Below are positions 17,149 to 39,726 of a stretch of DNA of 64,000 nt, in pieces. The notes below the pieces were generated by a model. That model was not told the DNA's origin. It saw only the letters and a list, made by a program, of their open reading frames with translations, and ran no database searches. The first letter of the stretch is position 1; each line of letters begins with the position of its first letter. The DNA lies in contig NZ_QJTD01000003.1 of NCBI RefSeq assembly GCF_003217215.1, positions 62,001-126,000 of the forward strand. Direction: 5' to 3'. Made by a program: the position numbers and the translations under genes. This stretch comes from Winogradskyella epiphytica (GTDB lineage: Bacteria > Bacteroidota > Bacteroidia > Flavobacteriales > Flavobacteriaceae).

Positions 17149-19497
17149 TTAGCGACGCAGTGCAAAGTGACCAGTATAGGTCTTACCATCTGTAAACTTA
17201 GCAACAAACCAATAATCGTCACTTGGTAGTTGTCGACCGTTTAGAGTTCCATCCCAACCTCCGCTCAACGTTGTTTGTTGCGTAATAAGTTTTCCGAAAC
17301 GGCTATAAATTTGAACGACTTCTATTTGATTAAATTGAGCATTAGTGCCAATAACCCGCCATGTATCATTTTGATTATCACCATTTGGTGTAAAGTATTT
17401 TGGAAAGCCTAAAACGGAAATGGTTTCTTCAACAATTCCGCAACCGTTTTTATCTTTTATATAGACGGTATGGAAACCTCTTCGGACATTAGTAAATACG
17501 TTAGAGTCTTGATAGGGGCCATTGTAATCATCTAAGGCATATTCATAATCACCTTCTCCGGAAACATTAATGCTTACACTATTATTAGGATCAACTCCAA
17601 TGACATCCACACTTTCTAAGATGGCCAAATTTGACGATTCTACTGTGATTGTTCGACTTGCAGAACAGCCGTTTGGATCTGTAACAATAACGGTGTAGAT
17701 CCCAGGTTCTGTAACATTATAAAACAAGGTCGTTACATCTGTAGTTGTACCATTAAATTGCCATTCGTAGTAATAGTTATTGGGCAAATCATTAAGAACT
17801 CCTCCATAAATTTTAAGAGGTTCGGGAAATGTGTTCAGACAATAGGATACCGTTTCATCGGCTTCTAATAAAGGTGTGTAAAGAACTTTAAGGTCCACAG
17901 ACGTTACGCTGAAACATTGATTGTTACTTGTGACTTTTACGTAAATTGTTTGTTCGTTGGCTATACTATTTTCAAATGAATTCGATAATGGGTTAGTTTC
18001 ATTAAAAGCATCTTCTTCAGTTTCATAATAGCTCACATTGGCACCTTCAGGAATTTGATTGAGAATAGAGCCTTCTATTAGTGATAAATCGAAATTAGCG
18101 AAGCCATCAACCATATCGCCATCACATCCGTTTAAGTCTGGAATATTTAGGACGTTATTTGAAATTTGTAACTCTAATTCAGCAATACTCGAGCAATTTG
18201 CTTGATTTTTAATACGTGTATAGACAATTTGATTTGGGTAGGTGTTTTGAAAAGCTTCAGGTGTTGTAATAGGATTTTCATTTGCTATAGCATCGGCTTC
18301 TGTTAAGAAAAAACCTTCGATACTTAAATCTTGATCTCCATTTACTAAGTCAAATGTGGCATTAAATAAATTATAAGTGGTTAATCCATCTTGATTGATA
18401 TCACATTCAACTAAAACCGAATCGTTAACAACGGGTAAAGGTGCATATTCAACTATGACTTCTCCGTAAGAAATACAATTATTTTCTAATGTGACTTCAA
18501 TAGTGTAGGTGCCAGGCTCAGTAATGGTGTAAGTTTCACAGTCTGTGCAGTTACTTGGTTCAGATAAGATTAGATTTCCATCTTTGTACCATTTATAAGC
18601 GCTTTGTCCATCTTGAACTGCGCTAATTTCTAAAGTTTCCCCATGGCATAGCGCATTAGAAGTTGCTATAAGCATGTTTGGACCTAAGTCCGTAGAAAGT
18701 TCAAAACTTCCTGCTTCTAAAAAAACAGCGGAATCATATCTGTAATTTTTTTCATCAGCAATCACCAACTTTACGTGGTAGGTTTGGTTAGGAGTTATAT
18801 TTGCGGTAGCTGTTAAAATTGCCGTTTGGCCATTAAAGTTGATAGGTGCATCGCTACCATTATAACCTCCGAAATAGGTTTCGTTTTGTGGCGGACAAAC
18901 TCCAGGAACTCCCGGGGTTACGGTTGTTGCTTTAACAGGTGTATCTGTATCTGGTACTAAGGCAATATTTTCAAATTGATTTTGAGCACCTACGGGTTTA
19001 ATCAGAAATCCAAAAAGATCCGAGTAATTACAACTATTTGGGTCGTTTTCTTGATATTCTTCCGAAGCAAAAAGGTATCTGAAACTAACTTGCGAAGCAG
19101 CAGAAGTAAATTCGAATTCTATAATTGTAGCATTTACAGTTCCAGATTCGTTTAAGGCATTCTCTAAATCTATATCACCTCCCCAATTTGGTGCATCATC
19201 ATCACTTAAACTTGTGTTTGGTCCAGGGACATTGCTTAATCGTCCAGTACTCATTACAATGCCACTTTCAAATGGAAATGAAGATCCATTCGCTTCAAAG
19301 TAGCCATAGCTTTTGTCTGTACTCCCAAAGTCACCACCAATTACATTTGTGACATTAATATTGTCAATACAGTCACTATCAATTAATACATTCTCAATAA
19401 GTTCTTGAGGAGTGTAGTTTTGGCTATCTACGATTATATTTTGCGAATACGTAAATAAGGATCCAATGAGGGCAGTTAAAAGGACTAAATACTTCAT
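17149..19497 (-). CDS. type IX secreted protein: choice-of-anchor L head, 2 repeats, type B sorting domain
   Basis: A 782-residue cell-surface protein read from the ATG at 19497 (MKYLVLLTALIGSLFTYSQ, a signal peptide); a TTG 21 bases upstream is less likely. The choice-of-anchor L domain spans about 20-265 (SSFPFESGIVMSTG, ASEEYQ). An Ig-like segment (about 270-350), two roughly 94-residue modules with CDINQDG and CDGDMVDG loops, a second Ig-like segment and the type IX type B sorting domain (YFTPNGDNQNDTW ... HFALRR) follow. The tail from the second Ig segment on resembles those of the 821- and 1145-residue proteins more than its neighbour's. Last of six related genes. Probable adhesin; ligand unknown. 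Confidence 0.88.
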   Translation of the reverse strand: MKYLVLLTALIGSLFTYSQNIIVDSQNYTPQELIENVLIDSDCIDNINVTNVIGGDFGSTDKSYGYFEANGSSFPFESGIVMSTGRLSNVPGPNTSLSDDDAPNWGGDIDLENALNESGTVNATIIEFEFTSAASQVSFRYLFASEEYQENDPNSCNYSDLFGFLIKPVGAQNQFENIALVPDTDTPVKATTVTPGVPGVCPPQNETYFGGYNGSDAPINFNGQTAILTATANITPNQTYHVKLVIADEKNYRYDSAVFLEAGSFELSTDLGPNMLIATSNALCHGETLEISAVQDGQSAYKWYKDGNLILSEPSNCTDCETYTITEPGTYTIEVTLENNCISYGEVIVEYAPLPVVNDSVLVECDINQDGLTTYNLFNATFDLVNGDQDLSIEGFFLTEADAIANENPITTPEAFQNTYPNQIVYTRIKNQANCSSIAELELQISNNVLNIPDLNGCDGDMVDGFANFDLSLIEGSILNQIPEGANVSYYETEEDAFNETNPLSNSFENSIANEQTIYVKVTSNNQCFSVTSVDLKVLYTPLLEADETVSYCLNTFPEPLKIYGGVLNDLPNNYYYEWQFNGTTTDVTTLFYNVTEPGIYTVIVTDPNGCSASRTITVESSNLAILESVDVIGVDPNNSVSINVSGEGDYEYALDDYNGPYQDSNVFTNVRRGFHTVYIKDKNGCGIVEETISVLGFPKYFTPNGDNQNDTWRVIGTNAQFNQIEVVQIYSRFGKLITQQTTLSGGWDGTLNGRQLPSDDYWFVAKFTDGKTYTGHFALRR

Positions 19498-19580
19498 TTT
19501 AAAATTTAGAGAAGGCAAAGATAAGCATACAAGTTAATCAAAGATATAAATAGGTGTTAAAGAAATTGTAGGAGGTTTAC

Positions 19581-22500
19581 TTAACGGCGTAAGGTGAAAT
19601 GGCCTCGTACTTCAAATGCAATACTTTCTTGTTTAACTTCAGCTAAAAACCAATAATCATTAGCAGGCATATGATGACCGTTATACGTTCCATTCCATCC
19701 CTGAGAATTATGACCCAACTGTTTTAAAAGCTTACCGTAACGATCAAATATATAAACGATACTTCCGGGTAAGGTTTCGATACCAATAATATGCCAGGTG
19801 TCATTTTGCCTGTCTCCATTTGGAGTGAAAAATTTTGGGGCATCAATAACGAGTACCTCTTTAGTAACTTCGGCACAGCCATTTAAATCAATTATGGTAA
19901 TAGTATGATAACCAAGAGCAACATTTTCAAATACATTAGAATTTTGTGGGACACCATCATCTAGAATATAGAGGTAATTTCCAATTCCGCTAATGGTTAT
20001 AGTAATATTGTTGGGGTCTGAAAAATCTACTGTTTCCACGACGTCGATATTGGCAGACTCTGATTCTATTACATTGAATGTGCTGGTATTTTGACAACCA
20101 AATTGGTTTGTGATGGTTACAGTATAAGTTCCTATCTCATCTATTTGTATCTCAGGTGTTGTAGCATTTGTTGACCAAAGATAGGTGTCTGTATTTACGT
20201 TAGTGTATGCTGAAACCATTAAAGGTAAGTCATTCAAACAAATAACCTGGTCCGTGATTGATGCAAATGGTAACTCATGGATTATAACTGAAAACTGTGT
20301 GGTATCAAAACAACCTGTTTGAATATTTTCAAGTCTTATATAAATTACTTGTCCATCAAAAGCTAAATAATTTTCATTAAGTGCTTCCATGTTTTCAATC
20401 GCATCATCCTCTGTTTGATGATAGGTTACCAGAAATTCATTTGAATTCTGATCACCTAAAATTTGAGTGGTTTGTTGGTTTAAATTGAATTCGAATATTC
20501 CATCAAAATCGTCATCACAAGCTTGTAAGTCACTTGGGGTATTTGCAATTGGTAAGGGCTTTACGATGATATTAAAAGGATAAACAGCATAACAATTCGT
20601 GGTGCTGTATTCTACTCGTGCAAAAAGAGTATCTGTTGTATCCGTATAGAAATAATCAGTATTCAAAGGGTTTTGATTATTTTCTGCATCAACTTCAGAT
20701 GTGAAGTAGTTTAATAAAACATTATAGGTGTTGTCTAATAGGATTGTATTAATCTCCTTTAGATCGACAAAATTTTCTGAATTCTCACAAATTTCGTAAT
20801 TCTCAAATTCATTAATTGGAGGAGGAGAGTTCACAATTAGTTCAAACGGAACAATATCATAACACTCAGTTGTGGCATTCCTGATTTTTGCGTAAATGGT
20901 TTGTGAGCCTTCAGAATTTATATAGTTTTCCGGACTCTGTATTCGATTCTGATTAGCTATAGCATCATCTTCAGATTCGTAATATGTAAAGGCTATATTA
21001 TATTGTCTTCCATCTAAAATATCTAACTCTATTTGGGTTAAATCCCATTCTGGTGATAAATTATAATTATTTCCACATGCCTCTAATTTTTGGTGAAAAT
21101 TCACTTCGGGTAGTGATAGTGTATTCATCCAAAAAGAAGCCGTATCGTGACATCCTGAGTTGATGTTTTCAATTCGTGCATAAATTAATTGTGGATTACT
21201 CGTCGCTGTAAAGTTTAATGGAATTTCATTAGTGCCTAGTTCGGCATTAAGAGGGGAAAGGTGAAACGTAACAATTAAACTCGTAGGAGAGCCTAAGTTG
21301 ATTTCTTGTATTTTATTATTTAGGTCGGTAGTGGCTAAGCCTGTTTTATTAATATCACATTCAAAAACATCACTCGGTTCGTTAAAGATAGGTGCTTGCC
21401 GAGACTCAATGTTCATTGGCGCTACTTTAAAACAAGAGTTACCAGTTTCATTTTCTAAACGAACATAGATGGTCTGAGGATTAGATGACTGAAGATAAGC
21501 TGTGTTTTTATCAATCGGATTCACTCGATTTATGGCATTTGCTTCAGTTTCAAAATAAAGAACTTGCATGTCTTCCTGTCCATTAATTATCTCGGTATCT
21601 TTATTAATGAATAAAAATTCTGAAGGCGTACTTAGATCTAACTCACATTTAATAAAATCTGTAATTTCATTCAGGAAAGGGGTAGCATATATTTGTATAT
21701 CATAACTAAATATTGAAAAACAATCTAGTCCTTCGATTTCACTGCGAATAAAAACGGTAGTACTTTCTGTGTTATAGTCAGTCCGATTTATGATTGGATA
21801 TTCATTTTCTACAGCATCTTCATAGTCCTCGAAAAAAGTAAAGTTTATATTATTCATTCCTCCAGAAAGTTCGGGTAGTATATTCTCAAGATTGACATTG
21901 GAAAATCCATCCTGATCATCATCACAGATAATAAGTGGGTCGGGATTACTAGCTCCGATAGCATTTGTAATATTAACTTGGAGAGTTGAAACGTCGTGAC
22001 AGGTTGAAAATATATCTATCACTCTTATAAATAAAGTTTGTTGATTACCAACGATATCTACACTCTCCACTAATTGGTTGACTTGATTTTCTGCATCTTC
22101 CTCAGTGAGGTAAAATTCAACTTGGCTAACAATATTAAGGCCATCTACTACGGTTTCAACCAAAGGATCTAAAACAATATTTGTCGTATTTGTTAAAGGA
22201 TTTGTGTTTCCACAATAATCTATTGTTTTGGGAGGTACGTATAGACCTGGAGTTATTCCTAAGTTTAATTTAGAATTGAGAGAGCAATCTTTATACGACG
22301 AACTTAAATAAATGGTTTTAGAACCTATGACTGTTAAAGGTATATTTTCATCTAAAGGATTAGTGTCGTTTAAGCGATCTTCTTCCGATTCATAAAATTG
22401 TAAGTCTATGTCGTAAGTACCTTTGAGTTCTGCGGCAACTTCTGCTAAATTATAATTAACAACTCCATCGTTAGTTTCATCATCGCATTTAAACAAATTA

Positions 22501-24413
22501 AGTTCTTTTTTAAACCTGTTGAATAATAAATTTTTGTGGAACTCTACCCTTAAAAATGTTGGGCAGTTTTCGCCATTTGTTCTAATGCTAATGGGTACTA
22601 TTTGGGTAGGTGATGCTGTAGTGATAGTTCTTGGGATGCCCATCACTAACATTTCAATTTGAACAAAAATATCAGGATAGATTGTTTCAATCTCACTTAT
22701 CATGTCCTCAAGATTATAAAGAATGGGTAAGCTGTTGTAGTCATAAGTCTCTCCATCAATAGACTCATTATAATCAGGGTCCATACAAAGGTTGATAATA
22801 TAGCGTTCACCAATATCTGGAGGAGTTATATAATTTAAATTAACACGAACAACTGATGGGCAAAAGTTGTAGATATCTTCAACTCTTGCATAAAAGAAAG
22901 GCAATTCATCGTCAATATTAGGGAATTCAGTTATTGCATTTTCAGTATTTGTAGCATCTTCTTCGGTTAAGTAAAAAGTGACATTGTTATCTAGTTCAAA
23001 GTTAGAAACGGTATAAATGAATAAGTTTAAATCGTAGAATGAAGGTTCTACTAATTCACCATTACAAACATCAATGGTGTATTCTAAAGTATTAGGAGAT
23101 TCTTTAACTAAAATATCGAATGTACCAATTTGAAGACAGTCTCCAGCTAAACTTTCAATCCGTACAAAAAAGGTCTCAATACTTTCCGTGTTTTGATAAA
23201 TCCCAGTAATCCGATTCTCATTATTTTGAGCATCATCTAGTGAATTATGATAACTTATAGTATAATCTGTAGATGGTAAATTGGCATAGATTTCCTCATT
23301 TTTTAGCGAGAAATCAAAATCGAAAAGACCATCACTCGGTTCAGGGTCACAGACTTCCCAATTGTTTATTAGAGCAGCATCTTGATAAGGTGTAATTTCT
23401 ATGTTTATGGAGTCTTCGAGTATACAATTCCCACTAGAAGTAGGGATTGAAACTTCCACGCTATAGGTTCCCGAGTCTTCCACGTCTATGCTTGGGTTAA
23501 TTTCACCTGGAATGAGATTCCCATTCAAATACCATGAGTAATTGGCTGCAGAGTTACTCACATTAGCATCTAAAGTCAGGGCTCTACCGCAAATAGTTTG
23601 ATCGGGTCCTAAGTTAATTGAAGTCCCGAATCCGTCTGCTTCAATAAAGACGGCAGAGTCGAATCTCTCGTCAAAATGATCTGCTATAACAAATTTAATG
23701 TGGTATGTTTCGTTCGCAATAATGTCTGTTCTAGCTGTTAAAACCTGTGTGCTACCACTAAAATTAGTGTCTCCACTATTATAACCTCGAAAATATTCTT
23801 CGTTAAGAGCGTCACAAAAACCAGAAATATTTGGTCTAATTGTGTTGGAACTGATTTCAGTAGAGGTCTCAGGAATAACTGCAATATTAACGTAAGGATC
23901 TGAAGTACCTGCGCGTTTTATTAGAATGGCAAATACATCTTTAAAATTACAAGGAAATTCTTGTTGGTATTCTTCTGAAGCAAATAAATAATTGAATGCT
24001 ATTGAATTATTGGGAGAAGAAAAGTCAAATTCTATGGATGTGGCATTTAGAGTCTGATCGATTCCTATGACTTCAAGAATATCTGAGTCGGTTCCCCAAG
24101 CTATATCACCTTCACTTAAATTATTTGGGTTAGGAATATTTCCTGCCGAACTTACGCGGCCTGTCGATAAAATTAAACCACTCTGAAGTGGGAAATTGGA
24201 AGAATTATTATTGAATGAGCCGTAGCTCACTATATTGTTAATGTCTCCGTTTATAGGTGATGAAACATTATTTACCGTGATACAATCATTACCAACTAAA
24301 TTTTGAATAAGTTCATTAGGTTCTTGGGTATTATCTGTAGAAACCTGCTGCGCAAATCCAACTTGGATTTGAACAAAAAGAATAATAAACCATAATGTTC
24401 TTAACTTTTTCAC
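19581..24413 (-). CDS. giant type IX secreted protein with 11 repeats, GTG start
   Basis: A 1610-residue protein. Signal peptide MKKLRTLWFIILFVQIQVGF is read from GTG; no in-frame ATG or stop-free alternative lies nearby upstream. A choice-of-anchor L domain (about 22-270), an Ig-like segment (about 275-350), about eleven modules of roughly 94 residues (about 350-1380), an Ig-like segment and the type B sorting domain (FFTPNGDRQNDTW ... HFTLRR) follow. The third module is divergent and lacks the usual DA and YVR landmarks. It is a full-length paralogue of the 1614-residue protein upstream, with the same number and order of modules. The GTG sits in the stem of a perfect inverted repeat (see 24397-24471). 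Confidence 0.88.
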   Translation of the reverse strand: MKKLRTLWFIILFVQIQVGFAQQVSTDNTQEPNELIQNLVGNDCITVNNVSSPINGDINNIVSYGSFNNNSSNFPLQSGLILSTGRVSSAGNIPNPNNLSEGDIAWGTDSDILEVIGIDQTLNATSIEFDFSSPNNSIAFNYLFASEEYQQEFPCNFKDVFAILIKRAGTSDPYVNIAVIPETSTEISSNTIRPNISGFCDALNEEYFRGYNSGDTNFSGSTQVLTARTDIIANETYHIKFVIADHFDERFDSAVFIEADGFGTSINLGPDQTICGRALTLDANVSNSAANYSWYLNGNLIPGEINPSIDVEDSGTYSVEVSIPTSSGNCILEDSINIEITPYQDAALINNWEVCDPEPSDGLFDFDFSLKNEEIYANLPSTDYTISYHNSLDDAQNNENRITGIYQNTESIETFFVRIESLAGDCLQIGTFDILVKESPNTLEYTIDVCNGELVEPSFYDLNLFIYTVSNFELDNNVTFYLTEEDATNTENAITEFPNIDDELPFFYARVEDIYNFCPSVVRVNLNYITPPDIGERYIINLCMDPDYNESIDGETYDYNSLPILYNLEDMISEIETIYPDIFVQIEMLVMGIPRTITTASPTQIVPISIRTNGENCPTFLRVEFHKNLLFNRFKKELNLFKCDDETNDGVVNYNLAEVAAELKGTYDIDLQFYESEEDRLNDTNPLDENIPLTVIGSKTIYLSSSYKDCSLNSKLNLGITPGLYVPPKTIDYCGNTNPLTNTTNIVLDPLVETVVDGLNIVSQVEFYLTEEDAENQVNQLVESVDIVGNQQTLFIRVIDIFSTCHDVSTLQVNITNAIGASNPDPLIICDDDQDGFSNVNLENILPELSGGMNNINFTFFEDYEDAVENEYPIINRTDYNTESTTVFIRSEIEGLDCFSIFSYDIQIYATPFLNEITDFIKCELDLSTPSEFLFINKDTEIINGQEDMQVLYFETEANAINRVNPIDKNTAYLQSSNPQTIYVRLENETGNSCFKVAPMNIESRQAPIFNEPSDVFECDINKTGLATTDLNNKIQEINLGSPTSLIVTFHLSPLNAELGTNEIPLNFTATSNPQLIYARIENINSGCHDTASFWMNTLSLPEVNFHQKLEACGNNYNLSPEWDLTQIELDILDGRQYNIAFTYYESEDDAIANQNRIQSPENYINSEGSQTIYAKIRNATTECYDIVPFELIVNSPPPINEFENYEICENSENFVDLKEINTILLDNTYNVLLNYFTSEVDAENNQNPLNTDYFYTDTTDTLFARVEYSTTNCYAVYPFNIIVKPLPIANTPSDLQACDDDFDGIFEFNLNQQTTQILGDQNSNEFLVTYHQTEDDAIENMEALNENYLAFDGQVIYIRLENIQTGCFDTTQFSVIIHELPFASITDQVICLNDLPLMVSAYTNVNTDTYLWSTNATTPEIQIDEIGTYTVTITNQFGCQNTSTFNVIESESANIDVVETVDFSDPNNITITISGIGNYLYILDDGVPQNSNVFENVALGYHTITIIDLNGCAEVTKEVLVIDAPKFFTPNGDRQNDTWHIIGIETLPGSIVYIFDRYGKLLKQLGHNSQGWNGTYNGHHMPANDYWFLAEVKQESIAFEVRGHFTLRR

Positions 24414-24471
24414 TAATACTCCAAAGGAGAGGATAATTCTTTTTTTATAAAAATATGAAAAAGTTAAGAAC
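24397..24471. repeat. 16-bp inverted repeat enclosing the start codon of the 1610-residue adhesin gene
   Basis: Arms 24397-24412 and 24456-24471 are perfect inverted copies (TGAAAAAGTTAAGAAC), separated by 43 bases. In the minus-strand mRNA the GUG start codon (24413-24411) would be fully paired, its first G as a G-U pair. Read on the plus strand, the right arm encodes ATG AAA AAG TTA AGA AC, the same first codons as the gene. Beyond the arms a weaker match continues (TATGGTTTATTA against TATGGTTAATTA) after a 10-base offset, as if the 5' end of the gene had been duplicated in inverse orientation. Confidence 0.85.
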
Positions 24472-24528
24472 CTTTATTATAATATGGTTAATTAACGAAA
24501 TTTATGGTTTTTGAAATTTGTATAAAAT

Positions 24529-29373: not shown

Positions 29374-29444
29374 TAGTTTCGCTTAAATTTAATAATTAAG
29401 TGGAGGACGAGCTAGAACTCAAGACTACACATATTTAATAGGGG

Positions 29445-29495
29445 CGAAATATACCTACTCTAAAGACGAAATACAAATAAATACGACGAAATACA
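29445..29495. promoter_or_regulatory. three helically phased CGAAATA motifs
   Basis: CGAAATATA (29445-29453), CGAAATACA (29467-29475) and CGAAATACA (29487-29495). The last two are part of an exact 11-base direct repeat GACGAAATACA. The spacing is 22 and 20 bases, about two helix turns, as for a regulator binding one DNA face. They lie 72-122 bases upstream of the start codon of the 1614-residue gene. Confidence 0.4.
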
Positions 29496-29736
29496 TAAAA
29501 TGTTAACATTTATTGTCGGTATAGGTTGTATTATGTTAAAATGCACCCAAAAATTCACTTTCCTTCCACAAATTAAACTCTCAATAACCTATTTATCTTT
29601 TTGAAATATGGATTACTAAAAGGTACAAAATATTAATCAAATACCATGCAAAACTAAATAGTTGATAATTAGAATTTTATCTTTATTCGTAAATATGTTA
29701 ATCTGAAAGCGTAAAATGTGCCAAATGAAGGTTGAC

Positions 29737-29773
29737 TTCAGTACTGTTATTTTAATTATAAAGCAGTACTGAA
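29737..29773. terminator. 10-bp inverted repeat after the 592-residue adhesin gene
   Basis: TTCAGTACTG (29737-29746) and CAGTACTGAA (29764-29773) are perfect inverted copies with a 17-base loop. It lies 23 bases downstream of the stop of the minus-strand gene at 29796. No T-run follows on the minus strand, so it may be a weak terminator, a 3' stabilising hairpin or a protein-binding site. Confidence 0.4.
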
Positions 29774-29795
29774 TTTAGAAAAAGTTGAATTTATA

Positions 29796-31574
29796 TTAAT
29801 AATTTACATAGACCCAGCCTACTTTAGGTCGGTATTTAGGATCATTCAAATTTAAGACATAATAATATGTGCCAACAGGAACAATATTGCCTTTATTATT
29901 TAAGCCTCTGTTTATTTCGCCATTCCACGGTTTATCGTTGTTTCCGTAAAAGATGAGTTCACCGTAACGATTGAAAATTTGTAATTCATGCTCAGTAAAA
30001 ATATTATATAATCCCTGAATATTAAACCAATCATTTTTTGAATCATTGTTTGGTGAGAAGCCTTGTGGAATATAAGGAGGACAATTTTCTATGTTCAAAT
30101 TAAACTGAAAAATTTCATAACAAGGTGGACTAATTAGTTTAATATAAATAGTTTCTGGGTTTGAAACATTATAATAATGGCTAGGCATAATTATAGAATT
30201 ATCTCCTAAATGTAAATCTTCCAATGAACGATAAAATGATAGGTCTTCCTCATTAAAATCCAAGCTTTCAATAGCTTCAAATAAATTATAAGTTGAGCTT
30301 TCAAATCCTTCGTTACAACCAATAAGGTCTGGTAGAATGGTGGTTTCAGGAATAATTAGTAATTCAATCTCTTTAAATGCACTATTGTTGTTTTCATTCG
30401 ATTCTGTAACAACTCCGTTCATGGTGCCGTCATCATCTACTATCGCAATAATTGTAACCAAAGAGTCAAGGTTGTCTGGTAGATTAATGCTTATGGAGCT
30501 GCTCTCGCTTCCATTAATAGCAATTTCATTTTGAGTTACACTCACGCCAATTAAACTATCGTTATAATAAAACGCAATTGGTGTATTGGCAGGTAAAATA
30601 GCGGTGCTATTACTATTGTAAACGGTATAAAAAATTTCAATTTGGTTATCACCACAACTCATAGCATCATTATCAATCGTGATCGTAGCATCTGGTAATT
30701 GACTATTAAGAACTGTTATAATATTATTAATCATTACAAAGTCCTGACCAGATGTTAAAACAATATTAGCTGTGGTGTCGCCAATATTAATATGATTTTG
30801 AATGCTATAAACATCAATATCCATATTGTAGAGGTTGGATTCTCCTGTAAAAGAATTTGTGCCGTTAAATGCATTGTTAGCAGGGTTTAAAGGGTAATTA
30901 CTAATAACACTTCCGTTAATAGTCAACTGTTCGTTTACAGCAATTGATCGGTCACCTTCCCACGCCACGAATCCAATTTTAGCATTTTCATTGTCTAAAA
31001 CATTGAGATTATCTAATGTTATACTTAAATATTCTGGGACACTCTGTAAACCATCATATACATTTAGTTGATTTAGCGGAAGGTTAGAGTCCTCATATAT
31101 AATAGTAATGGCCCAACCTCCAAAATTTGTTCCCGATGGACAGTAGGGAGCGATTACATCAGTGAGGTCGAAATTTGAAATGGTATATTCAGTACTTCCT
31201 TGATCTATAATAATTGAAGTAACATCGGCAAAGGCAGCAAAGAAAATCCGATTACTATCTATAGCATCGCTAAAGGTTCGTTCTGTTGTAATATCTATAT
31301 TGTTCAATGAGATATTAAAATCACCAGCACCAGATCCTGCCCAATACAAATAGGCAGCGACCACATTTTGGTTGTCGTTTAGAGTTAAATTTGCCGATGA
31401 TTCAGTGTGAATCTCACAAGGAGCACTAGTGCCATTTTCGGCTAAGTTCATAGTATTTCCAATGGCGAGATAATCGTAGCGACCATTAAATTGCTGGTAC
31501 AAGGAAATGTCTTGAGCCATTAACAGCTGAGAAATACTTATGACGTATAATAATATGTATTGGTATGTTTTCAA
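29796..31574 (-). CDS. type IX secreted protein with CARDB-like domain and one repeat, TTG start
   Basis: A 592-residue secreted protein. The signal peptide MKTYQYILLYVISISQLLMAQ is only complete when read from TTG at 31574; no in-frame ATG lies between the upstream stop and this codon. An N-terminal beta-rich domain (about 22-285; VVAAYLYWAGSGAGD, RIFFAAFADVT) is followed by a CARDB-like adhesion domain (about 290-405; NSSAFKEIEL), one copy of the roughly 94-residue module (LIGCNEGFESSTYNLF ... ETIYIKLISPPC) and a type B sorting domain (PQGFSPNNDSKNDW ... VGWVYVNY). This sorting domain belongs to a different subgroup from the other five. Third gene of the operon starting at 37512. Confidence 0.82.
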   Translation of the reverse strand: MKTYQYILLYVISISQLLMAQDISLYQQFNGRYDYLAIGNTMNLAENGTSAPCEIHTESSANLTLNDNQNVVAAYLYWAGSGAGDFNISLNNIDITTERTFSDAIDSNRIFFAAFADVTSIIIDQGSTEYTISNFDLTDVIAPYCPSGTNFGGWAITIIYEDSNLPLNQLNVYDGLQSVPEYLSITLDNLNVLDNENAKIGFVAWEGDRSIAVNEQLTINGSVISNYPLNPANNAFNGTNSFTGESNLYNMDIDVYSIQNHINIGDTTANIVLTSGQDFVMINNIITVLNSQLPDATITIDNDAMSCGDNQIEIFYTVYNSNSTAILPANTPIAFYYNDSLIGVSVTQNEIAINGSESSSISINLPDNLDSLVTIIAIVDDDGTMNGVVTESNENNNSAFKEIELLIIPETTILPDLIGCNEGFESSTYNLFEAIESLDFNEEDLSFYRSLEDLHLGDNSIIMPSHYYNVSNPETIYIKLISPPCYEIFQFNLNIENCPPYIPQGFSPNNDSKNDWFNIQGLYNIFTEHELQIFNRYGELIFYGNNDKPWNGEINRGLNNKGNIVPVGTYYYVLNLNDPKYRPKVGWVYVNY

Positions 31575-31612
31575 ATTTGAAGGTTGATCATACCAAAATA
31601 CAAATTTTTAAG

Positions 31613-34078
31613 TTAGCGCTTCAATGTGAAATGACTTGTAAATGTTCTGCCATCTTCAAGCTGTACTTTAAACCAATAATCGCTAGATGGTAGTTTTATT
31701 CCATTAAATGTGCCGTCCCAACCAACGCTTAACGGATCGAGTTCTTTTAAAAGTTGCCCATACCTATCAAAAATATAAATAGTGGAATTCGATTGAAATT
31801 CTGATGAAATCCCTTTTACTTGCCAAAAGTCATTGTTGTTATCATCATTTGGTGTGAAAAATCTAGGGAAACCAATTACGGAGATTAAATCTTCTGTGAT
31901 GCCGCAATTATTTTTATCCCTTATATAAACCGTATAGAGGCCTGGAGGTACATTTTCAAAAGTATTTGAATCTTGATAAGGACCCCATATGTCTTCTAAA
32001 GCATATTCGTAATTACCTTCACCATTCACTAGGATTGAAACGGAATTATTAATTGTTCCATCAACGATTTCAATGTTGGTTATGCTTGCAATATTAGAAG
32101 GTAAAACCTTTATTACTCTATCTTTAAAACAACCGTTAGAATTCGTAACTCTAACCGTATAAGTGCCTGGTGAATTTGCATTAATTTCAGTGGTTGTTTC
32201 ACCTGTAGACCATAAATAACTATAGTTGTTTGGTATGTCGTCAATGACTCCTCCAGATAAGCTTAAGGTTTCAGGAAATAGATTGAGACAATAGTAAGCT
32301 TCAGATGTAGTTTCAATATTAGGAAGTGCGAAAACAGAAAGTTCTACCGTGCTAATCCCATAACAAGCATTTGTGTTTTCTACTCTTGCGTAAATAGTTT
32401 GATTGTAAGGTATCGTATTAGTAAAAGTTGAGCCAAGAGCATTGCTTTCGACTAAAGCATCATCATAATTTTCATAATAAGTGATATCTAAATCAGCAGG
32501 AGCTCCAGCTAAAATAATTGGCTCTGCATCAGCTAGATTAAACTCCATAAAGCCATCTTCTATACCATCTGTATCGCATAGTTTTAAACTTGTATTATTT
32601 GTAGACGTTGTACTAACTTCTAAAGTGATATGACTAATATTTGAACAGCTCGTTGTTTGGTTGGTTACTCGAGCATAAATAATTTGAGGGTTGAAGTAGT
32701 TCTCAAAAGCATTGCCATCAATCTCATTAATTTGATTTTCGGCATCTGTAAGAGAGAGGTAATATGAAATGGTAGTATCTGGATTTCCTCCTGTAATGTC
32801 GTCGGCAACTTCAGTGATATTAAAAGTAGTAAAACCTTCAGGAATTCCATCTTCGTCACATTGAATCAAGGTAACATCATGGGCTATAGGTTTTGGGTTC
32901 ACATGAATCTTAAAAGAAGTAAATCCTATACAACCTAAATCGAGATCTTGAATTCTAACAAAAATATCAGTTGGAGTGGGAGCTGTATTAGAATACAGAA
33001 GAGGTAAAGCTGAAGTAGACGTTTCAGCATCTGATTGACTCAAATGGTAGCTAATATCATAATTAACACCGACGATTCCATCGAGAATTTCTTCACTTTT
33101 AATATTAAAATCAAAAGTAACTTGACCATTTTGATCATCGCCATCTAAGTCGTTATCGCAAATACGGTAATCTGAAGGTTGATTAAAATTGGTTAATGTT
33201 GAAACATTTATATCAAAGTCGTTAATAATATAGCAGCCTGATGTCGTATTTTCTACCCTAACATAAATGGTTTCATTTGGAGAGGTATTATTAAAAACAT
33301 TTCCTAAGGGATTAATATTTATATTGGCATCACTTTCCGATAAGTGATAGCTCACTTCTACATCAGATTCGTTATTAATGATATCCTGAGTCAAGGAAGT
33401 GAAGTCCAATTCTATAATATTATCATCAAACGGAGCATCATTATCACAAATATCTATAGTTGGTAAACTTGTAGAACTAAGGTTGTCTAACAAAGGATTA
33501 GTTGGTGCTTCTGGGAAGGTTGCCGTTCCTGTCCATTCCATAGAAAAGGGACTATTACCAATTGGTCTATCAATAACTATAAAGTAGCTTTCGCCTGCTA
33601 AGGCATCTATTTCACTAACAAAACTATCGCCATTTGCACCTGGACCATCAAAGGTTTCTGTTGAGGTAGAGTTTAAGCCTGTTAAGTTGTTACCTTGATT
33701 AGCCGCAGCTGGATTTGTTGTAGAACAACGAATAGCCTGCCCAATATTACCACATTCAACATTAGGACCAAATACGAAAAAATCGTAATCTTCATTAATA
33801 CTATTACTGTCGGGTGTCAATGTAAAAGCTAAGGTTCCGTCTGTTGCAATATCAACTTTTAACCAAATACTATTGTATTCTCTACTTCCACAAGAGTTTG
33901 AATTATTTAATTCCTGTGTGCCAACCCCATTAACATCTAAATTGAAATCCGAATTTCCACAAACGGTTACAGCAAATTGGCAATCATTTGGCTGTTGTGC
34001 AAAACAAAAAGAATTGAAGGAGAAGATTAATATAATTGTCCATAAGGATTTTAGACAAAGTTGAGGGAATTGAATCAT
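31613..34078 (-). CDS. type IX secreted protein with four repeats
   Basis: An 821-residue secreted protein with signal peptide (about 1-27, ending CFAQQ). The N-terminal beta domain (about 28-190) contains WLKVDIATDGTLAFTLTPDS and YFIVIDRPIGNSPFSMEWTG, resembling CUB/PPC-type domains that flank secreted adhesins. Four roughly 94-residue modules (about 200-575; CDNDLDGDD, CDEDG, CDTDG) are followed by an Ig-like segment and the type B sorting domain (FFTPNDDNNNDFW ... HFTLKR). From the third module to the end it is very similar to the 1145-residue protein encoded upstream. Its ATG overlaps the upstream stop (ATGA), so the two are translationally coupled. Confidence 0.87.
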   Translation of the reverse strand: MIQFPQLCLKSLWTIILIFSFNSFCFAQQPNDCQFAVTVCGNSDFNLDVNGVGTQELNNSNSCGSREYNSIWLKVDIATDGTLAFTLTPDSNSINEDYDFFVFGPNVECGNIGQAIRCSTTNPAAANQGNNLTGLNSTSTETFDGPGANGDSFVSEIDALAGESYFIVIDRPIGNSPFSMEWTGTATFPEAPTNPLLDNLSSTSLPTIDICDNDAPFDDNIIELDFTSLTQDIINNESDVEVSYHLSESDANININPLGNVFNNTSPNETIYVRVENTTSGCYIINDFDINVSTLTNFNQPSDYRICDNDLDGDDQNGQVTFDFNIKSEEILDGIVGVNYDISYHLSQSDAETSTSALPLLYSNTAPTPTDIFVRIQDLDLGCIGFTSFKIHVNPKPIAHDVTLIQCDEDGIPEGFTTFNITEVADDITGGNPDTTISYYLSLTDAENQINEIDGNAFENYFNPQIIYARVTNQTTSCSNISHITLEVSTTSTNNTSLKLCDTDGIEDGFMEFNLADAEPIILAGAPADLDITYYENYDDALVESNALGSTFTNTIPYNQTIYARVENTNACYGISTVELSVFALPNIETTSEAYYCLNLFPETLSLSGGVIDDIPNNYSYLWSTGETTTEINANSPGTYTVRVTNSNGCFKDRVIKVLPSNIASITNIEIVDGTINNSVSILVNGEGNYEYALEDIWGPYQDSNTFENVPPGLYTVYIRDKNNCGITEDLISVIGFPRFFTPNDDNNNDFWQVKGISSEFQSNSTIYIFDRYGQLLKELDPLSVGWDGTFNGIKLPSSDYWFKVQLEDGRTFTSHFTLKR

Positions 34079-37000
34079 CGTTTTAATGTAAAGTGATTGG
34101 TATAGGTGCGTCCATCTTCTAATATAACTTTAAACCAATAGTCACTTGTTGGCATTTTAGCACCATTGTAAGTGCCATCCCATCCAGGACCTAAAGGGTC
34201 TAGTTCTTTTAAAAGTTTTCCATACCTATCAAAAATATAAATGGTTGCATTGGCTTGGAATTGTTCTGTAATTCCATAGACTTGCCAAAAGTCGTTAATT
34301 GAATCGTTATTCGGTGTAAAAAACTTAGGAAATCCTATTACCGAAATTAAATCTTCAACAACGCCACAATTATTTTTGTCTCTAACGTAAACGGTGTGCA
34401 AACCAGGTTGAACATTATTAAAAGTAGAACTGTCTTGATAAGGGCCGTTAACATCATCTAATGCGTACTCATAATTTCCTTCACCATTGACTATAACAGA
34501 GATTGAATTGTTTTGTGAAGCATGAACAATGTCAATATTTATAATGTTGGCAACGTTTGAAGGTAAAACAGTAATTGTGCGATCTTTGAAACAACCGTTG
34601 GTGTTCATTACCCGAACGTTATAAATTCCTGCCGCATTAATTTGTATTTCTGAAGTGGTTTCTCCTGTAGACCATTCATAATAATAGTTACTTGGGGAGT
34701 CTTCAAGAATACCGCCATTTATAGTTAAGGTTTCAGGAAATTGATTTAAGCAATAGTAAGTTTCAAATTCAGTAGCTAGATTAGGTAAGCTTAAAACTGT
34801 GAGTTCAATTTCACTGATGCCAAAACATGCGTTGGAATTTTCTACTCGTCCATAAATGGTTTGACTATAGGGAACTGTATTGGTAAACGTAGTTTCTAAT
34901 GGGTTGTTTTCTAGAAGTGCGTCCTCGTAAGTTTCATAGTAGGTTACATCTAAACCTATTGGTGAATCAGATAAAATAGTAGTTTCTGCATCCAAAAGAT
35001 TAAAGGCCATCAAGCCATCTTCGGTTCCGTCGATATCGCATAGGGTTAAGCTGGTATTGATTGAAGATGTGATATTAACCTCTAAGGAAACTTCACTAAT
35101 ATTAGAACAACCGGAATTTGTATTAATCACTCTTGCATATATAATTTGAGGGTTGAAATAATTCTCAAAGGCATCAGCATCTATACTGTTTTCTTGGTTT
35201 TCGGCATCCAATAATGATGTGTAAAATTCTACATTATGGTTAGAAATGTTATCGGTAATTTCACTGATGTGATTAGTGAGATTAAAAATTGTGAATCCTT
35301 CAGGAATGCCATCTTCATCACATTGCACAATAGATGTTTGATTAGCAATTGGAATCGGATTTATAATTAAACTGAAACTACCTGTTGAAAAACATGCTGG
35401 ATTTAGAGTGTTTTCTATCCTAACAAAAATAGTTTCATTGACAGCTGAAGTGTTGGTGTAATTTAAAGGAAGTTCATTGAAGCCATTGTTAGCATCATTT
35501 TGTGAAGCATGAAATGACACACGAGTTTGTGTCGCATCTTGGTCGCCTCGAATTGTTGGTATTAAGTCTCCAAGTTGAATTGTAGCGATGCCATCTGAAA
35601 CGTCCCCTTGATTATCACAAATTTCAAAATTATTTAATGAGTGGATTTTTGGTGTGTTAAAAATCTCAACATTAAAGGAGTTAACGGCAAAACAATTCGG
35701 GTTTTCAGAATTATAAACACGAACAAAAATAGTTTGAGGATTACTTATGTTGTTGTAAGGAAATGTAATTTCGTTTTCACCAGAAGTGGCTTCATCTTCC
35801 GTTTCGAAATAACTCACCTTGTAAATTAAGGGATCTTGATTTAATAAGGCTTCAGCATTTTTATGACTAAAGTCCAAACTGTAAAAGCCAATATCTCCAT
35901 TGTCGTCACATATAATTTCGTCGGAAAGTGAATAAACTATGGGAATATCAAAAACACCGACTACAGCACTTCCTTCAATTGGGCAATCTCCATTATTCGG
36001 TTCAATATACACCTCATAAAAACCAGGACTAGTAATAAATAATTCTGAAGAGGTTTCAGCTAATTGAACACCATCTAAAGACCAAATATAGTCTGCTCCT
36101 GCAATATCATCGGCTTTTAAGGTATAACTGTCGTTGGTACATAGATTTAGTTCAGTAGTGCTGATTCCATTTTTAATGATATCAATTTCCGAATTAAATA
36201 GAGATTGAATGAAAGGAGGTAAACCAATACGACTGACATTTTGGTTAGAACCATTAATATCTAAAAGGACACCATGCTCATCGTAATTTGCCGCTGATCC
36301 ATCAGCTTCAGGATTTTGGATAACTCCTAAGTGTTTTGAGAGTGTAGGATGGTTACTATAACTTAATTGTGCTCTGTAAATTCGTCTGTCAATACCTAAT
36401 TGTAGTGCTCCCGCCGAAATATCATTAGAGGTATGAATCACTTGGAGCGAGTTAGGAATGTTAGCACTCTCTAAATCCCATTGCAATACTTGACTTGTTC
36501 CTGTGCCTTCAATACCTTTGTTGATGGTAGCATAAGCTTTCTTAGTTTCAGCAGAAAACTCTACGCCATAAGGACTATCATTGTTTGTCGAAGCATATAA
36601 TTCTAAGGAATTTGAAATAATACCAGTTTCATTATCAAAATCAAAAAGATATATGCTTCCTCCAGAATTCCCACCTGTCACAGTAGCTTCACCAAAATTG
36701 GCTGATATAAGCTTTGATCCATCAGGAGAGGATTTAATATAACCTAAGGCATTCCGTCTGTAGCCTTCTAAAGGAATATTTGGACCTATTGTTGAAATAA
36801 CAGGAGTGGTTTCTACACCGGTCGCATCAATTTTAAAAGCATAAAATTTGTTGACAAAATGTGTTATTACCCAAAACGATGTACAGTCTTCAGCACGAAC
36901 TGCCGTAATTTTTTCTGAACATTTATATTGAATTTCTAAAGGGTCAGCAGGATCGTAGGTAACCAAATGTATGTTCTTTTCAGTGGGAACGACGTCTCCT

Positions 37001-37512
37001 AATCCATTATTAAGAGTCATATCAATCAGTGAGTAATTGAAACCATTATTAAAACCATCATCAGATTCTGGAACAGATCCGCCTTCTTCGTAAATACCGG
37101 TAAACTGATTTGGATATACAGAAGCGTTGTCATGATGTGGCTCATCAACCGTAAAAAGATAATATTTGTCTGGGTCGTTGGGTTTTGGAACTATTAGGCC
37201 TGAGGAAGTACTTGAGGGATCGCCTAAAAGACCAGTTCCGGCAGCATAATTGCCATTATCCATGATTTGATGATTTCGATTCCATACGGTTCGTCCATCA
37301 GAGTAAAAGCGTAAATTTCCATCCATATCAGAAAAGGAAGTACATCCTTCTAAGGTGTTAATCTGTCCGTTTGTAATAGCCGTAACTGTTCCCGATTCGG
37401 CATTAAAACGAAGACCAGCATTCTTGCCGAAATACCAGAATGAAGCCTCCTTTTGTCCAAAACATTGAGCAATAGAAAAGAGTATACATAAAATGAAACA
37501 AATCCTTTTCAT
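34075..37512 (-). CDS. type IX secreted protein with propeller-like head and four repeats
   Basis: A 1145-residue secreted protein. Signal peptide MKRICFILCILFSIAQCFG is followed by a large head (about 20-440) starting KEASFWYFGKNAGLRFN. Repeated blade-like strands there (GNLRFYSDGRTVWNRNH, GYIKSSPDGSKLISANFG, LYLFDFDNETGIISN-like) suggest a beta-propeller. A PKD/Ig-like domain (about 445-525), four roughly 94-residue modules (about 525-900), an Ig-like segment and the type B sorting domain (FFTPNNDSINDFW ... HFTLKR) complete it. It is the first gene of a three-gene operon, 105 bases after an ABC permease gene. Confidence 0.87.
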   Translation of the reverse strand: MKRICFILCILFSIAQCFGQKEASFWYFGKNAGLRFNAESGTVTAITNGQINTLEGCTSFSDMDGNLRFYSDGRTVWNRNHQIMDNGNYAAGTGLLGDPSSTSSGLIVPKPNDPDKYYLFTVDEPHHDNASVYPNQFTGIYEEGGSVPESDDGFNNGFNYSLIDMTLNNGLGDVVPTEKNIHLVTYDPADPLEIQYKCSEKITAVRAEDCTSFWVITHFVNKFYAFKIDATGVETTPVISTIGPNIPLEGYRRNALGYIKSSPDGSKLISANFGEATVTGGNSGGSIYLFDFDNETGIISNSLELYASTNNDSPYGVEFSAETKKAYATINKGIEGTGTSQVLQWDLESANIPNSLQVIHTSNDISAGALQLGIDRRIYRAQLSYSNHPTLSKHLGVIQNPEADGSAANYDEHGVLLDINGSNQNVSRIGLPPFIQSLFNSEIDIIKNGISTTELNLCTNDSYTLKADDIAGADYIWSLDGVQLAETSSELFITSPGFYEVYIEPNNGDCPIEGSAVVGVFDIPIVYSLSDEIICDDNGDIGFYSLDFSHKNAEALLNQDPLIYKVSYFETEDEATSGENEITFPYNNISNPQTIFVRVYNSENPNCFAVNSFNVEIFNTPKIHSLNNFEICDNQGDVSDGIATIQLGDLIPTIRGDQDATQTRVSFHASQNDANNGFNELPLNYTNTSAVNETIFVRIENTLNPACFSTGSFSLIINPIPIANQTSIVQCDEDGIPEGFTIFNLTNHISEITDNISNHNVEFYTSLLDAENQENSIDADAFENYFNPQIIYARVINTNSGCSNISEVSLEVNITSSINTSLTLCDIDGTEDGLMAFNLLDAETTILSDSPIGLDVTYYETYEDALLENNPLETTFTNTVPYSQTIYGRVENSNACFGISEIELTVLSLPNLATEFETYYCLNQFPETLTINGGILEDSPSNYYYEWSTGETTSEIQINAAGIYNVRVMNTNGCFKDRTITVLPSNVANIINIDIVHASQNNSISVIVNGEGNYEYALDDVNGPYQDSSTFNNVQPGLHTVYVRDKNNCGVVEDLISVIGFPKFFTPNNDSINDFWQVYGITEQFQANATIYIFDRYGKLLKELDPLGPGWDGTYNGAKMPTSDYWFKVILEDGRTYTNHFTLKR

Positions 37513-38445: not shown

Positions 38446-38504
38446 ATATGGGTTGGTTTTACATAATTTCTATTGCTAAAAATTATGCTGATTTTGTAAT
38501 TGCT

Positions 38505-39401: not shown

Positions 39402-39726
39402 AATGATTGGTTTTTGTGAAATTGTCAAAAACTCATTGTCTTAAATAGTTTTTAAACAATATCAATTGGTTATGTAGATAAGACGAGTGATATAAATGTT
39501 TGTTACAAAATATTTGGTTTTATTACATCGGGATATAAAAGTTATCGCATTTATTCATTTTTGTATTACTATAGAAATGAGTTAAACTCCAATTTTTAGA
39601 AAGAAAAAGGTCGGTTTTCTTATAAAAAAGCACTCTAAATGGCAATTTTTATATCATTTGCGAATAAATATCTAAAATTCGTATTAAAGATTTTCCTATT
39701 CATTTAGGAACTCTTAAATTTAGAAA
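39402..39726. other. divergent intergenic region
   Basis: About 325 AT-rich bases between two divergent starts. Minor inverted repeats are present (AAGAAAA / TTTTCTT near 39600-39620, CCTA...TAGG near 39693-39707). No exact TAnnTTTG was found in a convincing position and no small gene is supported. Confidence 0.4.

Follow-up and report, generated by a model that had tools for sequence, protein, structure and literature searches.

Studies of gliding in Bacteroidota have mostly dealt with a single type B adhesin, SprB, and a single carrier, SprF. In Winogradskyella epiphytica, six consecutive genes encode repetitive type B proteins at a single locus. This raises the question of whether these proteins form a common set, how they are held at the cell surface and whether they could take part in movement.

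Six type B proteins at one locus

A first-pass annotation of the window (the whole stretch of 64,000 nucleotides analysed here) had proposed six minus-strand genes between positions 17149 and 37512. They were found at that place and on that strand, encoding proteins of 592-1614 aa (Table 1), each with a signal-peptide-like N-terminus as judged by eye. The type B type IX sorting domain that had been ascribed to all six was recovered with both PF13585 (44-66 bits, cut-off 27) and TIGR04131 (45-119 bits, cut-off 35). Export of all six proteins by the type IX system through this C-terminal domain (CTD) is therefore supported at the level of sequence.

Since g6 and g5 overlap by 4 nt and only 38 nt separate g5 from g4, a g6-g5-g4 operon is plausible, and 422 nt lie ahead of g3. 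Scanning the gap between g4 and g3 for sigma-70-type promoters yielded 9 sites where 3.5 were expected (sd 2.1), the meaning of which is unsure in the phylum of the host. With a Bacteroidota-type promoter pattern, four minus-strand sites turned up in the region, and neither g6 nor g3 had one at its start. For g1, which opens with TTG, the true start may lie a few codons downstream. The array is bordered by a gene that we take from its sequence to be uvrB and, on the other side, by abcP and abcA. The identification of abcA as GldA was rejected (TIGR03522 173 bits vs a cut-off of 402.6).

Table 1. Positions in the window of the array genes, their domains and the locus borders.
Feature	Positions	Strand	Remarks
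uvrB	15107..17113	-	locus border; conserved next to the array across many relatives and in other genera
g1, 789 aa	17149..19518	-	choice-of-anchor L head, PKD/Ig-like domain, 2 modules, tail GHFALRR
g1 type B CTD	17152..17409	-	HFxL class; TIGR04131
g1 module tract (2)	17857..18420	-	module profile
g1 choice-of-anchor L domain	18703..19329	-	NF038133, E 3.8e-45
g2, 1610 aa	19581..24413	-	choice-of-anchor L head, Ig-like domain, 10 modules and a decayed slot, tail GHFTLRR
g2 type B CTD	19584..19847	-	HFxL class; TIGR04131
g2 module tract (10 and decayed one)	20256..23366	-	module profile
g2 choice-of-anchor L domain	23628..24314	-	NF038133, E 1.6e-42
g3, 1614 aa	24529..29373	-	choice-of-anchor L head, Ig-like domain, 11 modules, tail GHFTLRR
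g3 type B CTD	24532..24795	-	HFxL class; TIGR04131
g3 module tract (11)	25204..28326	-	module profile
g3 choice-of-anchor L domain	28588..29271	-	NF038133, E 1.4e-44
g4, 592 aa	29796..31574	-	head about residues 20-400 without family name, 1 module, tail GWVYVNY
g4 type B CTD	29838..30071	-	other class; TIGR04131
g4 single module	30078..30332	-	module profile
g5, 821 aa	31613..34078	-	head about residues 29-205 without family name, 4 modules, tail SHFTLKR
g5 type B CTD	31616..31876	-	HFxL class; TIGR04131
g5 module tract (4)	32306..33463	-	module profile
g6, 1145 aa	34075..37512	-	head about residues 20-455 without family name, 4 modules, tail NHFTLKR
g6 type B CTD	34078..34338	-	HFxL class; TIGR04131
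g6 module tract (4)	34768..35925	-	module profile
abcP and abcA, ABC-2 permease and ATPase	37618..39428	-	other conserved locus border

Shared modules and differing heads

Between head and CTD the six proteins share an Ig-like module of ~93 residues. An iterated profile grown from one module recovered 32 copies at E below 1e-15 across the six proteins, and the lengths are graded as had been claimed (1, 2, 4, 10 or 11 modules). The 33 modules counted earlier thus become 32 confident copies and one decayed, as in the remaining slot, near residues 543-632 of g2, the cysteine frame is intact but the score is only E 0.91. Each module is probably closed by a disulfide. No Pfam family passed its curated cut-off in 73 scanned modules, 41 of which were taken from outside the window among 95 scoring at least 40 bits, the decayed g2 module being left out; the best family common to modules, Ig_7, appeared in 3/73 (best E 0.024, below cut-off). 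Stiffening of the modules by calcium was considered and dropped, since DxDxDG after the first cysteine occurs in only 7/32 window modules and in 18/73 overall.

A structure search with a single module placed fragments of GhpA, the grappling hook protein of Aureispira (PDB 9flv, 9fly and others), in the eight top rows (Z 5.2-5.9, rmsd 2.8-4.7, 71-78 residues aligned). With unrelated Ig domains close behind (Z 5.0 and less), the match is effectively tied and may reflect only a common Ig arrangement. Searching PDB sequences with the module profile gave no match at E 0.1, to GhpA or to any other entry.

The heads are of four types, in line with the three or four claimed earlier. Those of g1, g2 and g3 are choice-of-anchor L domains (NF038133, 145-154 bits, cut-off 27), a family name that denotes a domain and not a function. 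Unlike these, the heads of g4, g5 and g6 gave no NF038133 match at E up to 0.1 and represent three further types without a Pfam or NCBIfam family. Against PDB sequences, whole g6 showed a weak lectin-like stretch in its head (E 0.035), and residues 25-545 of g3 gave a single match (E 0.53). For a model of the same g3 stretch, structure matches span residues 240-510 only and hardly touch the choice-of-anchor L head.

A conserved locus

We found the array in 23/24 other Winogradskyella genomes and, in part, in 14/14 other Flavobacteriaceae genera, all of which had been picked for having g4. It always lies near abcA/abcP and/or uvrB. At ~43-78% protein identity, the 23 relatives retain the order of the genes, their heads and their module numbers, which bears out the proposal that the six genes belong together as a set. 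Module numbers are nearly frozen: the short g1 type has two modules in 19/19 relatives, g4 one in 23/23 and g5 four in 14/14, while long genes have 10-11 in 35/42, some relatives having 14 or 17. Eleven modules are found again in 7/14 of the other genera. Moreover, g4 was matched in at least 54/120 Flavobacteriaceae genera, our own genome included. Profile analysis, which had been suggested as a test of the sorting domains and shared modules, retained both with high scores; together with the conservation in 23 relatives, these scores exclude a chance origin of the array features.

In three genomes, G015, G018 and G021, g1 has the opposite orientation. Phase variation by DNA inversion found no support, as the longest exact inverted matches in these genomes are only 18-25 nt. 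Those touching g1, one of 18 nt in G021 and two of 22 and 19 nt in G018, fall within the coding sequence of facing related genes, and G015 had no inverted match besides a short palindrome when exact matches of at least 18 nt were sought.

The set and its arrangement had been singled out as what stands out. The array is a conserved locus, however, and is not peculiar to the W. epiphytica genome. What we regard as new is the HF[TA]L[KR]R tail in five of the six proteins, the absence of an adjoining carrier and the pairing of tail with carrier motif.

Two classes of sorting domain

The tail HF[TA]L[KR]R forms the end of the CTD in g1, g2, g3, g5 and g6. Among themselves these five HFxL CTDs share 45-78% identity. 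They match the CTD of a cargo protein on contig C27 at 49-61%, and identity falls to 38-45% with the SprB-like protein's CTD and to 23-36% with the four remaining non-array CTDs. The g4 CTD, in contrast, is 33-44% identical to those same four and 29-37% to the HFxL five. By these identities the sorting domains fall into two classes, g1, g2, g3, g5 and g6 vs g4, from which two kinds of anchoring are predicted.

A candidate carrier in trans

The array has no carrier gene as a neighbour: all six PorP/SprF genes found in the genome are on other contigs. This absence is itself a clue to function, pointing to a carrier encoded elsewhere. The candidate is C4:103-1113 (336 aa), a member of the PorP/SprF family with Cys-X-Cys in its C-terminal tail. 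The end of contig C27 overlaps the start of C4 by 95 nt and the carrier then follows on C4; carrier and such cargo are contiguous in G010, G005 and G014. Moreover, at twelve named loci the C4-type carrier is preceded by a choice-of-anchor L cargo with 6-13 of the modules. It is 32% identical to the SprF of its own genome and had no PDB sequence match at E 0.01. On sequence comparison, it is a SprF paralogue, distinct from SprF and adjoining relatives of g3. In Gelidibacter, Paucihalobacter and Gaetbulibacter no cargo lies within 9 kb upstream, and the C4-type carrier is thus an orphan at these loci.

The motif is well kept. Cys-X-Cys was present in 30/30 SprF orthologues, with FTLYR cargo in 30/30, and in the C4-type carriers of 30/30 family loci and 80/80 named loci (closest matches; the sets overlap) as well as 18/20 divergent genera. 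L301 is a divergent exception, in which a carrier without the motif adjoins HFxL cargo, and the carrier of L133 has Cys-X-X-Cys and a cargo with another tail. We also compared tails and carriers in 40 other Winogradskyella carriers (a selection from the seven genomes G005, G006, G015, G018, G020, G021 and G023). Among the matches listed, Cys-X-Cys carriers with visible cargo had an HFxL tail beside them in 10/10 cases and carriers without the motif in 0/23, these 33 pairs falling into few groups (six at 50% identity over 52 carriers, two of them with the motif). The Cys-less carriers examined have PorE-like neighbours. Because a neighbouring carrier is missing for most HFxL CTDs, we infer their partner. 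Tentatively, and with doubt slightly prevailing, we suggest a general rule: HF[TSA]L tails would signal "ride the gliding track" through SprF and the second Cys-X-Cys carrier, and other tails "stay put" through Cys-less carriers.

Moving or static

We lean towards a model in which g1, g2, g3, g5 and g6 are alternative gliding-track adhesins that share one carrier in trans, g4 having a static-class tail. Each array protein would reach the periplasm by Sec and cross the outer membrane via the type IX system, its type B CTD leading. The CTDs of the five would be held by the single carrier C4:103-1113. Because the tail of this carrier has Cys-X-Cys, like SprF, we propose that it forms a disulfide with GldK and that the carrier is pulled along by the gliding track. 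The cargo would then be a moving rod of Ig-like modules (2, 4 or 11; also 14 or 17 in relatives) ending in one of three kinds of tip. Static anchoring would follow for g4, as its CTD class is the one found with Cys-less carriers beside PorE-like genes. GldK is present (592.7 bits, cut-off 350), with cysteines at 19, 272 and 328, one of which may correspond to Cys343 of F. johnsoniae. The Cys-X-Cys of SprF has been described as bonding to GldK and as required for SprB movement (PMC12635249), and gliding has been observed for North Sea Winogradskyella isolates (PMC9723794).

The closest published parallel comes from F. johnsoniae, where three orphan CTDs use one orphan carrier (the Fjoh_1677 type) and are placed by the authors in the gliding machinery (PMC12618676). 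There, as in the array, the CTDs lack an adjoining carrier gene and resemble one another (over 44% identity vs 45-78% in the HFxL five), and a single carrier serves in trans, as we propose here. Unlike that system, the five array clients are clustered in one conserved locus with common modules, the Winogradskyella carrier adjoins a further client, and the array includes a protein, g4, whose CTD is only 29-37% identical to the other five. Each carrier molecule appears to be consumed by a single substrate (PMC12618676), so that one carrier may be limiting for many clients.

Alternatively, all six proteins may be static fibres that are exported by the type IX system, held without movement and used to attach to algae, particles or other cells. 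In that case the Cys-X-Cys carrier would be an ordinary anchor, or a track link for a minority of molecules. SprB fitted with the Fjoh_1123 CTD formed mostly static foci in F. johnsoniae, moving in 3% of cells (n=525; PMC12618676). This CTD is probably of the same class as the HFxL array CTDs, and the 3% counts against our model. Moreover, Fjoh_3952 is a published type B protein with static anchoring (PMC12618676), and the g4 tail is itself static-class. In tail and CTD similarity g4 resembles the static Fjoh_3952/3951/3950 type with its PorE-like neighbour, although it lacks an adjoining carrier or PorE-like gene; the other five differ from that type in tail and in the motif of their presumed carrier. 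That carrier keeps the SprF-like Cys-X-Cys even in 18/20 divergent genera, and it is with other CTD tails that the Cys-less carriers with PorE-like neighbours pair. On balance we judge static fibres unlikely.

It is still less probable that SprF itself carries the five HFxL proteins in competition with SprB, in which case the ride on the track would remain. In favour of this, SprB has a tail of the HFxL type (HFTLYR), SprF has the motif, and carriers can accept related CTDs (PMC12618676). As in the SprB/SprF pair, long type B cargo with an FTL tail would be matched with a PorP/SprF-family carrier bearing Cys-X-Cys; unlike it, the array has differing heads and many clients vs one, and the C4 carrier is only 32% identical to SprF. 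Identity of the five array CTDs, however, is 49-61% with the C4-type carrier's cargo and only 38-45% with SprB, and in F. johnsoniae a second carrier accepted a CTD at 68% identity but not those at 43% and 26% (PMC12618676). The presence of SprF is not decisive here, as three genera with g4-g3-g1-type genes are only partly without a SprF match. That the array is a duplication relic, its copies drifting without a common role and only some of them used, is very improbable. Clear duplication is seen in the pairs g2/g3 and g5/g6, a module of g2 has decayed and relatives have one to four long genes per array; yet gene order, heads and module numbers hold across 23 relatives, and the count of 11 recurs in 7/14 other genera.

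Implications for gliding in Flavobacteriaceae

The model in which five array proteins ride the gliding track on one carrier would bear on the wider family. Among the matches listed, with one genome per genus, the C4-type carrier occurs in ~104/120 Flavobacteriaceae genera and SprF in ~63/120, counts obtained at unequal thresholds (SprF at E 1e-40). About half of these genera thus have no SprF match at E 1e-40 among the matches listed, whereas most of the 120 have the second Cys-X-Cys carrier. Should this carrier be coupled to the track, the proteins that it holds, such as those of the array, may account for the movement of species without a SprF match and for what these grip. If the pairing holds, the CTD tail read together with the carrier tail would give a simple way to tell mobile from static members among the many unnamed type B proteins. 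In that case, gliding in many flavobacteria would rely on a changeable set of fixed-length adhesins on one common carrier, and the array beside uvrB would be a main adhesin store in Winogradskyella and its kin.

An array of modular type IX surface proteins

The six array genes (g1-g6, table) are flanked by an ABC transporter pair on one side and uvrB on the other. As the first-pass annotation had claimed, all six products carry a type B type IX sorting domain (CTD) at the C-terminus, 6/6 scoring above curated cut-offs. The proteins share an Ig-like module, for which a profile grown from one module recovered 32 strong copies; the earlier count of 33 holds only if a single decayed slot in g2, seen in the module profile search, is included. 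Residues 41-90 of g6 show weak likeness to mannose-type plant lectins (E 0.035), which is a hint at best of sugar binding by this head.

Position and domain content of the six array genes
Gene	Start	End	Strand	N-terminal head	Strong modules	CTD tail
g6	34075	37512	minus	no family match in Pfam or NCBIfam	4	HF[TA]L[KR]R
g5	31613	34078	minus	no family match in Pfam or NCBIfam	4	HF[TA]L[KR]R
g4	29796	31574	minus	no family match in Pfam or NCBIfam	1	GWVYVNY
g3	24529	29373	minus	choice-of-anchor L	11	HF[TA]L[KR]R
g2	19581	24413	minus	choice-of-anchor L	10	HF[TA]L[KR]R
g1	17149	19518	minus	choice-of-anchor L	2	HF[TA]L[KR]R

When 32 window modules and 41 chosen from named relatives were aligned (73 in all), the only invariant columns were two cysteines, 68 residues apart. 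Since 31/32 window module stretches contain exactly two cysteines, and that of g4 three, a disulfide within each module is predicted to be likely. AlphaFold2 folds the module with confidence (mean pLDDT 91), as a small domain rich in beta strands that also has two short helices. The module is covered by no Pfam family, a PDB sequence search with its profile was empty up to E 0.1 and Foldseek alone gave no match at E 0.001 or better. On a second look the nearest solved structures came from the grappling hook protein of Aureispira, whose Ig-like domains matched at Z 5.2-5.9, a likeness that ties with that to ordinary Ig domains. A model of g3 residues 25-545 (pLDDT 79, pTM 0.57) resembles a tandem Ig chain across residues 240-510, although its domain placement is not to be trusted.

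At positions 1 and 6-11, each module of g2 finds its best partner at the same position of g3 and vice versa, modules 2-5 having diverged. Moreover, modules 3 and 4 are 59% and 65% identical between g5 and g6, the mean identity over all module pairs being 29%. Whole-gene duplication together with exchange between g5 and g6 would explain this pattern of sequence similarity; recent slippage does not account for the observed pairings.

Conservation of the array

Reading the stretches around choice-of-anchor L genes, we found the array in 23 of 24 same-genus genomes; in the remaining one (G016) these genes, and with them the stretches read, lie away from the array site. The usual order is abcA, abcP (the ABC transporter genes), g6, g5, g4, g3, further long copies, g1 and uvrB, with at least one border visible in the fetched stretch for 21/23 arrays (none in G010 and G015). 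Absences are of g5 between g6 and g4 (G011, G012, G020) and of g1 ahead of uvrB (G011, G012, G024). Leaving out genes cut by a stop-less end, the short g1 type has 2 modules (19/19), g4 has 1 (23/23; that of G022 is cut by a contig end), g5 has 4 (14/14) and the g6 type has 4 (19/21) or 2 (2/21). Long genes have 11 (26/42), 10 (9/42), 14 (5/42) or 17 (2/42), the larger forms rising in steps of three modules. Long choice-of-anchor L genes that exceed 11 modules by three or six (14 or 17) occur in the Winogradskyella genomes G001, G002, G005, G010, G013, G017 and G021 and in G048 from another genus. In G021, G015 and G018 (loci L057-L061) g1 is inverted relative to the remaining array, and extra CTD genes (714-1107 aa), whose tails differ, lie between it and uvrB.

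A g4 match at E 1e-20 or better was obtained in 54 of 120 Flavobacteriaceae genera, its own included. The surroundings of g4 were read in 14 other genera, a sample chosen for having g4, and abcA/abcP and/or uvrB are nearby in all 14. An 11-module long gene follows g4 in seven of these and a 17-module one in G048; g4 stands without long genes in G099, G117, G131 and G140, and G152 and G157 have other combinations. Genes of this type have long occupied the site beside abcA/abcP/uvrB.

A candidate carrier outside the array

According to the parts available of PMC12618676 and the review PMC10202324, type B substrates require a PorP/SprF-family carrier, usually encoded adjacent. The array holds no such gene, the genome's six all being on other contigs. 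Over the last 92 residues, the five array CTDs of the HF[TSA]L tail class (HFxL) share 45-78% identity among themselves. Their identity to a CTD on the 4.3-kb contig C27 is 49-61%, against 38-45% for the CTD of the SprB-like protein and 23-36% for the four remaining CTDs outside the array; the g4 CTD clusters with the non-HFxL class. At its end C27 shares a 95-nt overlap with the start of contig C4, and likewise with the start of C11. Past this overlap, C4 encodes a 336-aa PorP/SprF carrier, a paralogue of SprF. In G010, G005 and G014, cargo like that of C27 is followed by a C4-type carrier with no break between them, and the cargo upstream of C4-type carriers at 12 named loci combines a choice-of-anchor L head with 6-13 array-type modules.

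In the window's genome, contigs C1, C27, C4 and C11 end precisely at a CTD of this kind and overlap by 95 nt, and G010 has near-identical CTDs in four distant cargo genes (L119, L120, L121, L123). Copies of the CTD appear to stay alike, perhaps through gene conversion, and they break many assemblies next to the carrier.

Pairing of carrier and cargo tails

In the part of PMC12635249 available, a Cys-X-Cys motif in the periplasmic tail of F. johnsoniae SprF is described as bonding GldK, so that SprB rides the moving track; SprF without it still allows SprB export, and SprB hardly moves. The C4 carrier ends in CRKEHYDCKCPAVN and the genome's SprF-like carrier in NCECTKGTSQSYYR. This genome's three other single carriers have no tail cysteine and end in SPRFF or SPRYF. 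Downstream of three Cys-less carriers (two in this genome, one in G005), the genes encode PD40 and CarboxypepD_reg domains, the latter below cut-off in two of the three, and OmpA in two, the third being cut by the end of the fetched stretch; PorE-type anchors have this domain make-up. The gene after the Cys-X-Cys carrier of C4 (L101:1645-3687) encodes a TPR sensor histidine kinase, and different genes lie downstream in G010 and G005.

Among 40 further Winogradskyella carriers, the cargo is HFxL for 10/10 with Cys-X-Cys and visible cargo and for 0/23 without the motif; seven have no visible cargo, two of them with Cys-X-Cys. With 12 more, the resulting 52 carriers form just six groups at 50% identity, two with motif and HFxL cargo and four with neither, and there are therefore few independent cases of this pairing. 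In the complete genome G010, 16/26 type B CTDs are HFxL, including the SprB-like one and one partial match, and two of the 16 have an adjacent carrier, both Cys-X-Cys. Seven of the ten non-HFxL CTDs have an adjacent carrier, with Cys-X-Cys in 0/6 whose tail was read, the seventh (SprD-like) being cut short. The PorP/SprF carrier at L133 of G010 (C1:1564677) has Cys-X-X-Cys near its end, and the tail of its neighbouring cargo, AFVFIK, is unusual.

At E 1e-30 or better, the C4 carrier matched 110/120 genera. Five of these matches sit at SprF's place (G060, G062, G069, G130, G133), as probably does that in G054, and removal of the SprF overlaps leaves about 104/120, a handful of them weak. SprF matched 65/120 genera at E 1e-40 or better, or 63 after dropping G142 and G156, where the match coincides with the C4-type carrier; given the unequal thresholds, this comparison is only rough. 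Among closest matches, in two overlapping sets, Cys-X-Cys is present in C4-type carriers at 30/30 family and 80/80 named loci, and moreover in 18/20 more divergent genera. The cargo beside them has an HFxL tail at 7/7 family, 35/35 named and 4/4 divergent loci; L301 is one of the last four, yet its carrier lacks the motif. The carriers without Cys-X-Cys, L299 (G053) and L301 (G140), both belong to genera with no SprF match; possibly these are non-gliders that have naturally lost their coupling to the track. SprF is absent from eight and present in 12 of the 20 divergent genera, too few for a test of the link. SprF itself has Cys-X-Cys in 30/30 cases, with cargo tail FTLYR in 30/30 (28 of them HFTLYR).

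Type B proteins, the sharing of one carrier by orphan CTDs and the cysteine link of SprF have been published already. The available parts of PMC12635249 and PMC12618676 contain no statement of a Cys-X-Cys motif in a second carrier. Our literature search, outside which many subscription papers lie and which thus does not prove novelty, turned up no further candidate paper on such a carrier among the titles listed, no paper with the words choice-of-anchor L, and none joining uvrB synteny with gliding motility-associated type IX secretion in Flavobacteriaceae.

A model for display of the array proteins

Lastly, we propose that the array proteins would be exported via the type IX system, that the C4 carrier (C4:103-1113) would capture the five HFxL CTDs and that its cysteines would couple this cargo to the gliding track, g4 being anchored by a static carrier. 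The predicted export is strongly supported. The choice of carrier is suggested by similarity and by analogy with Fjoh_1677, and we infer motion along the track. The strongest fact against this mechanism is that SprB with the Fjoh_1123 CTD gave movement in only 3% of cells; moreover, carriers seem to be consumed one for one, and a shared carrier would therefore face a supply problem (PMC12618676, part available). GldK is encoded in the window's genome, and gliding was observed in North Sea Winogradskyella isolates (PMC9723794, part available). Under the proposed mechanism, the cell would show tips of three kinds, carried on stalks built from 2, 4 or 11 modules.
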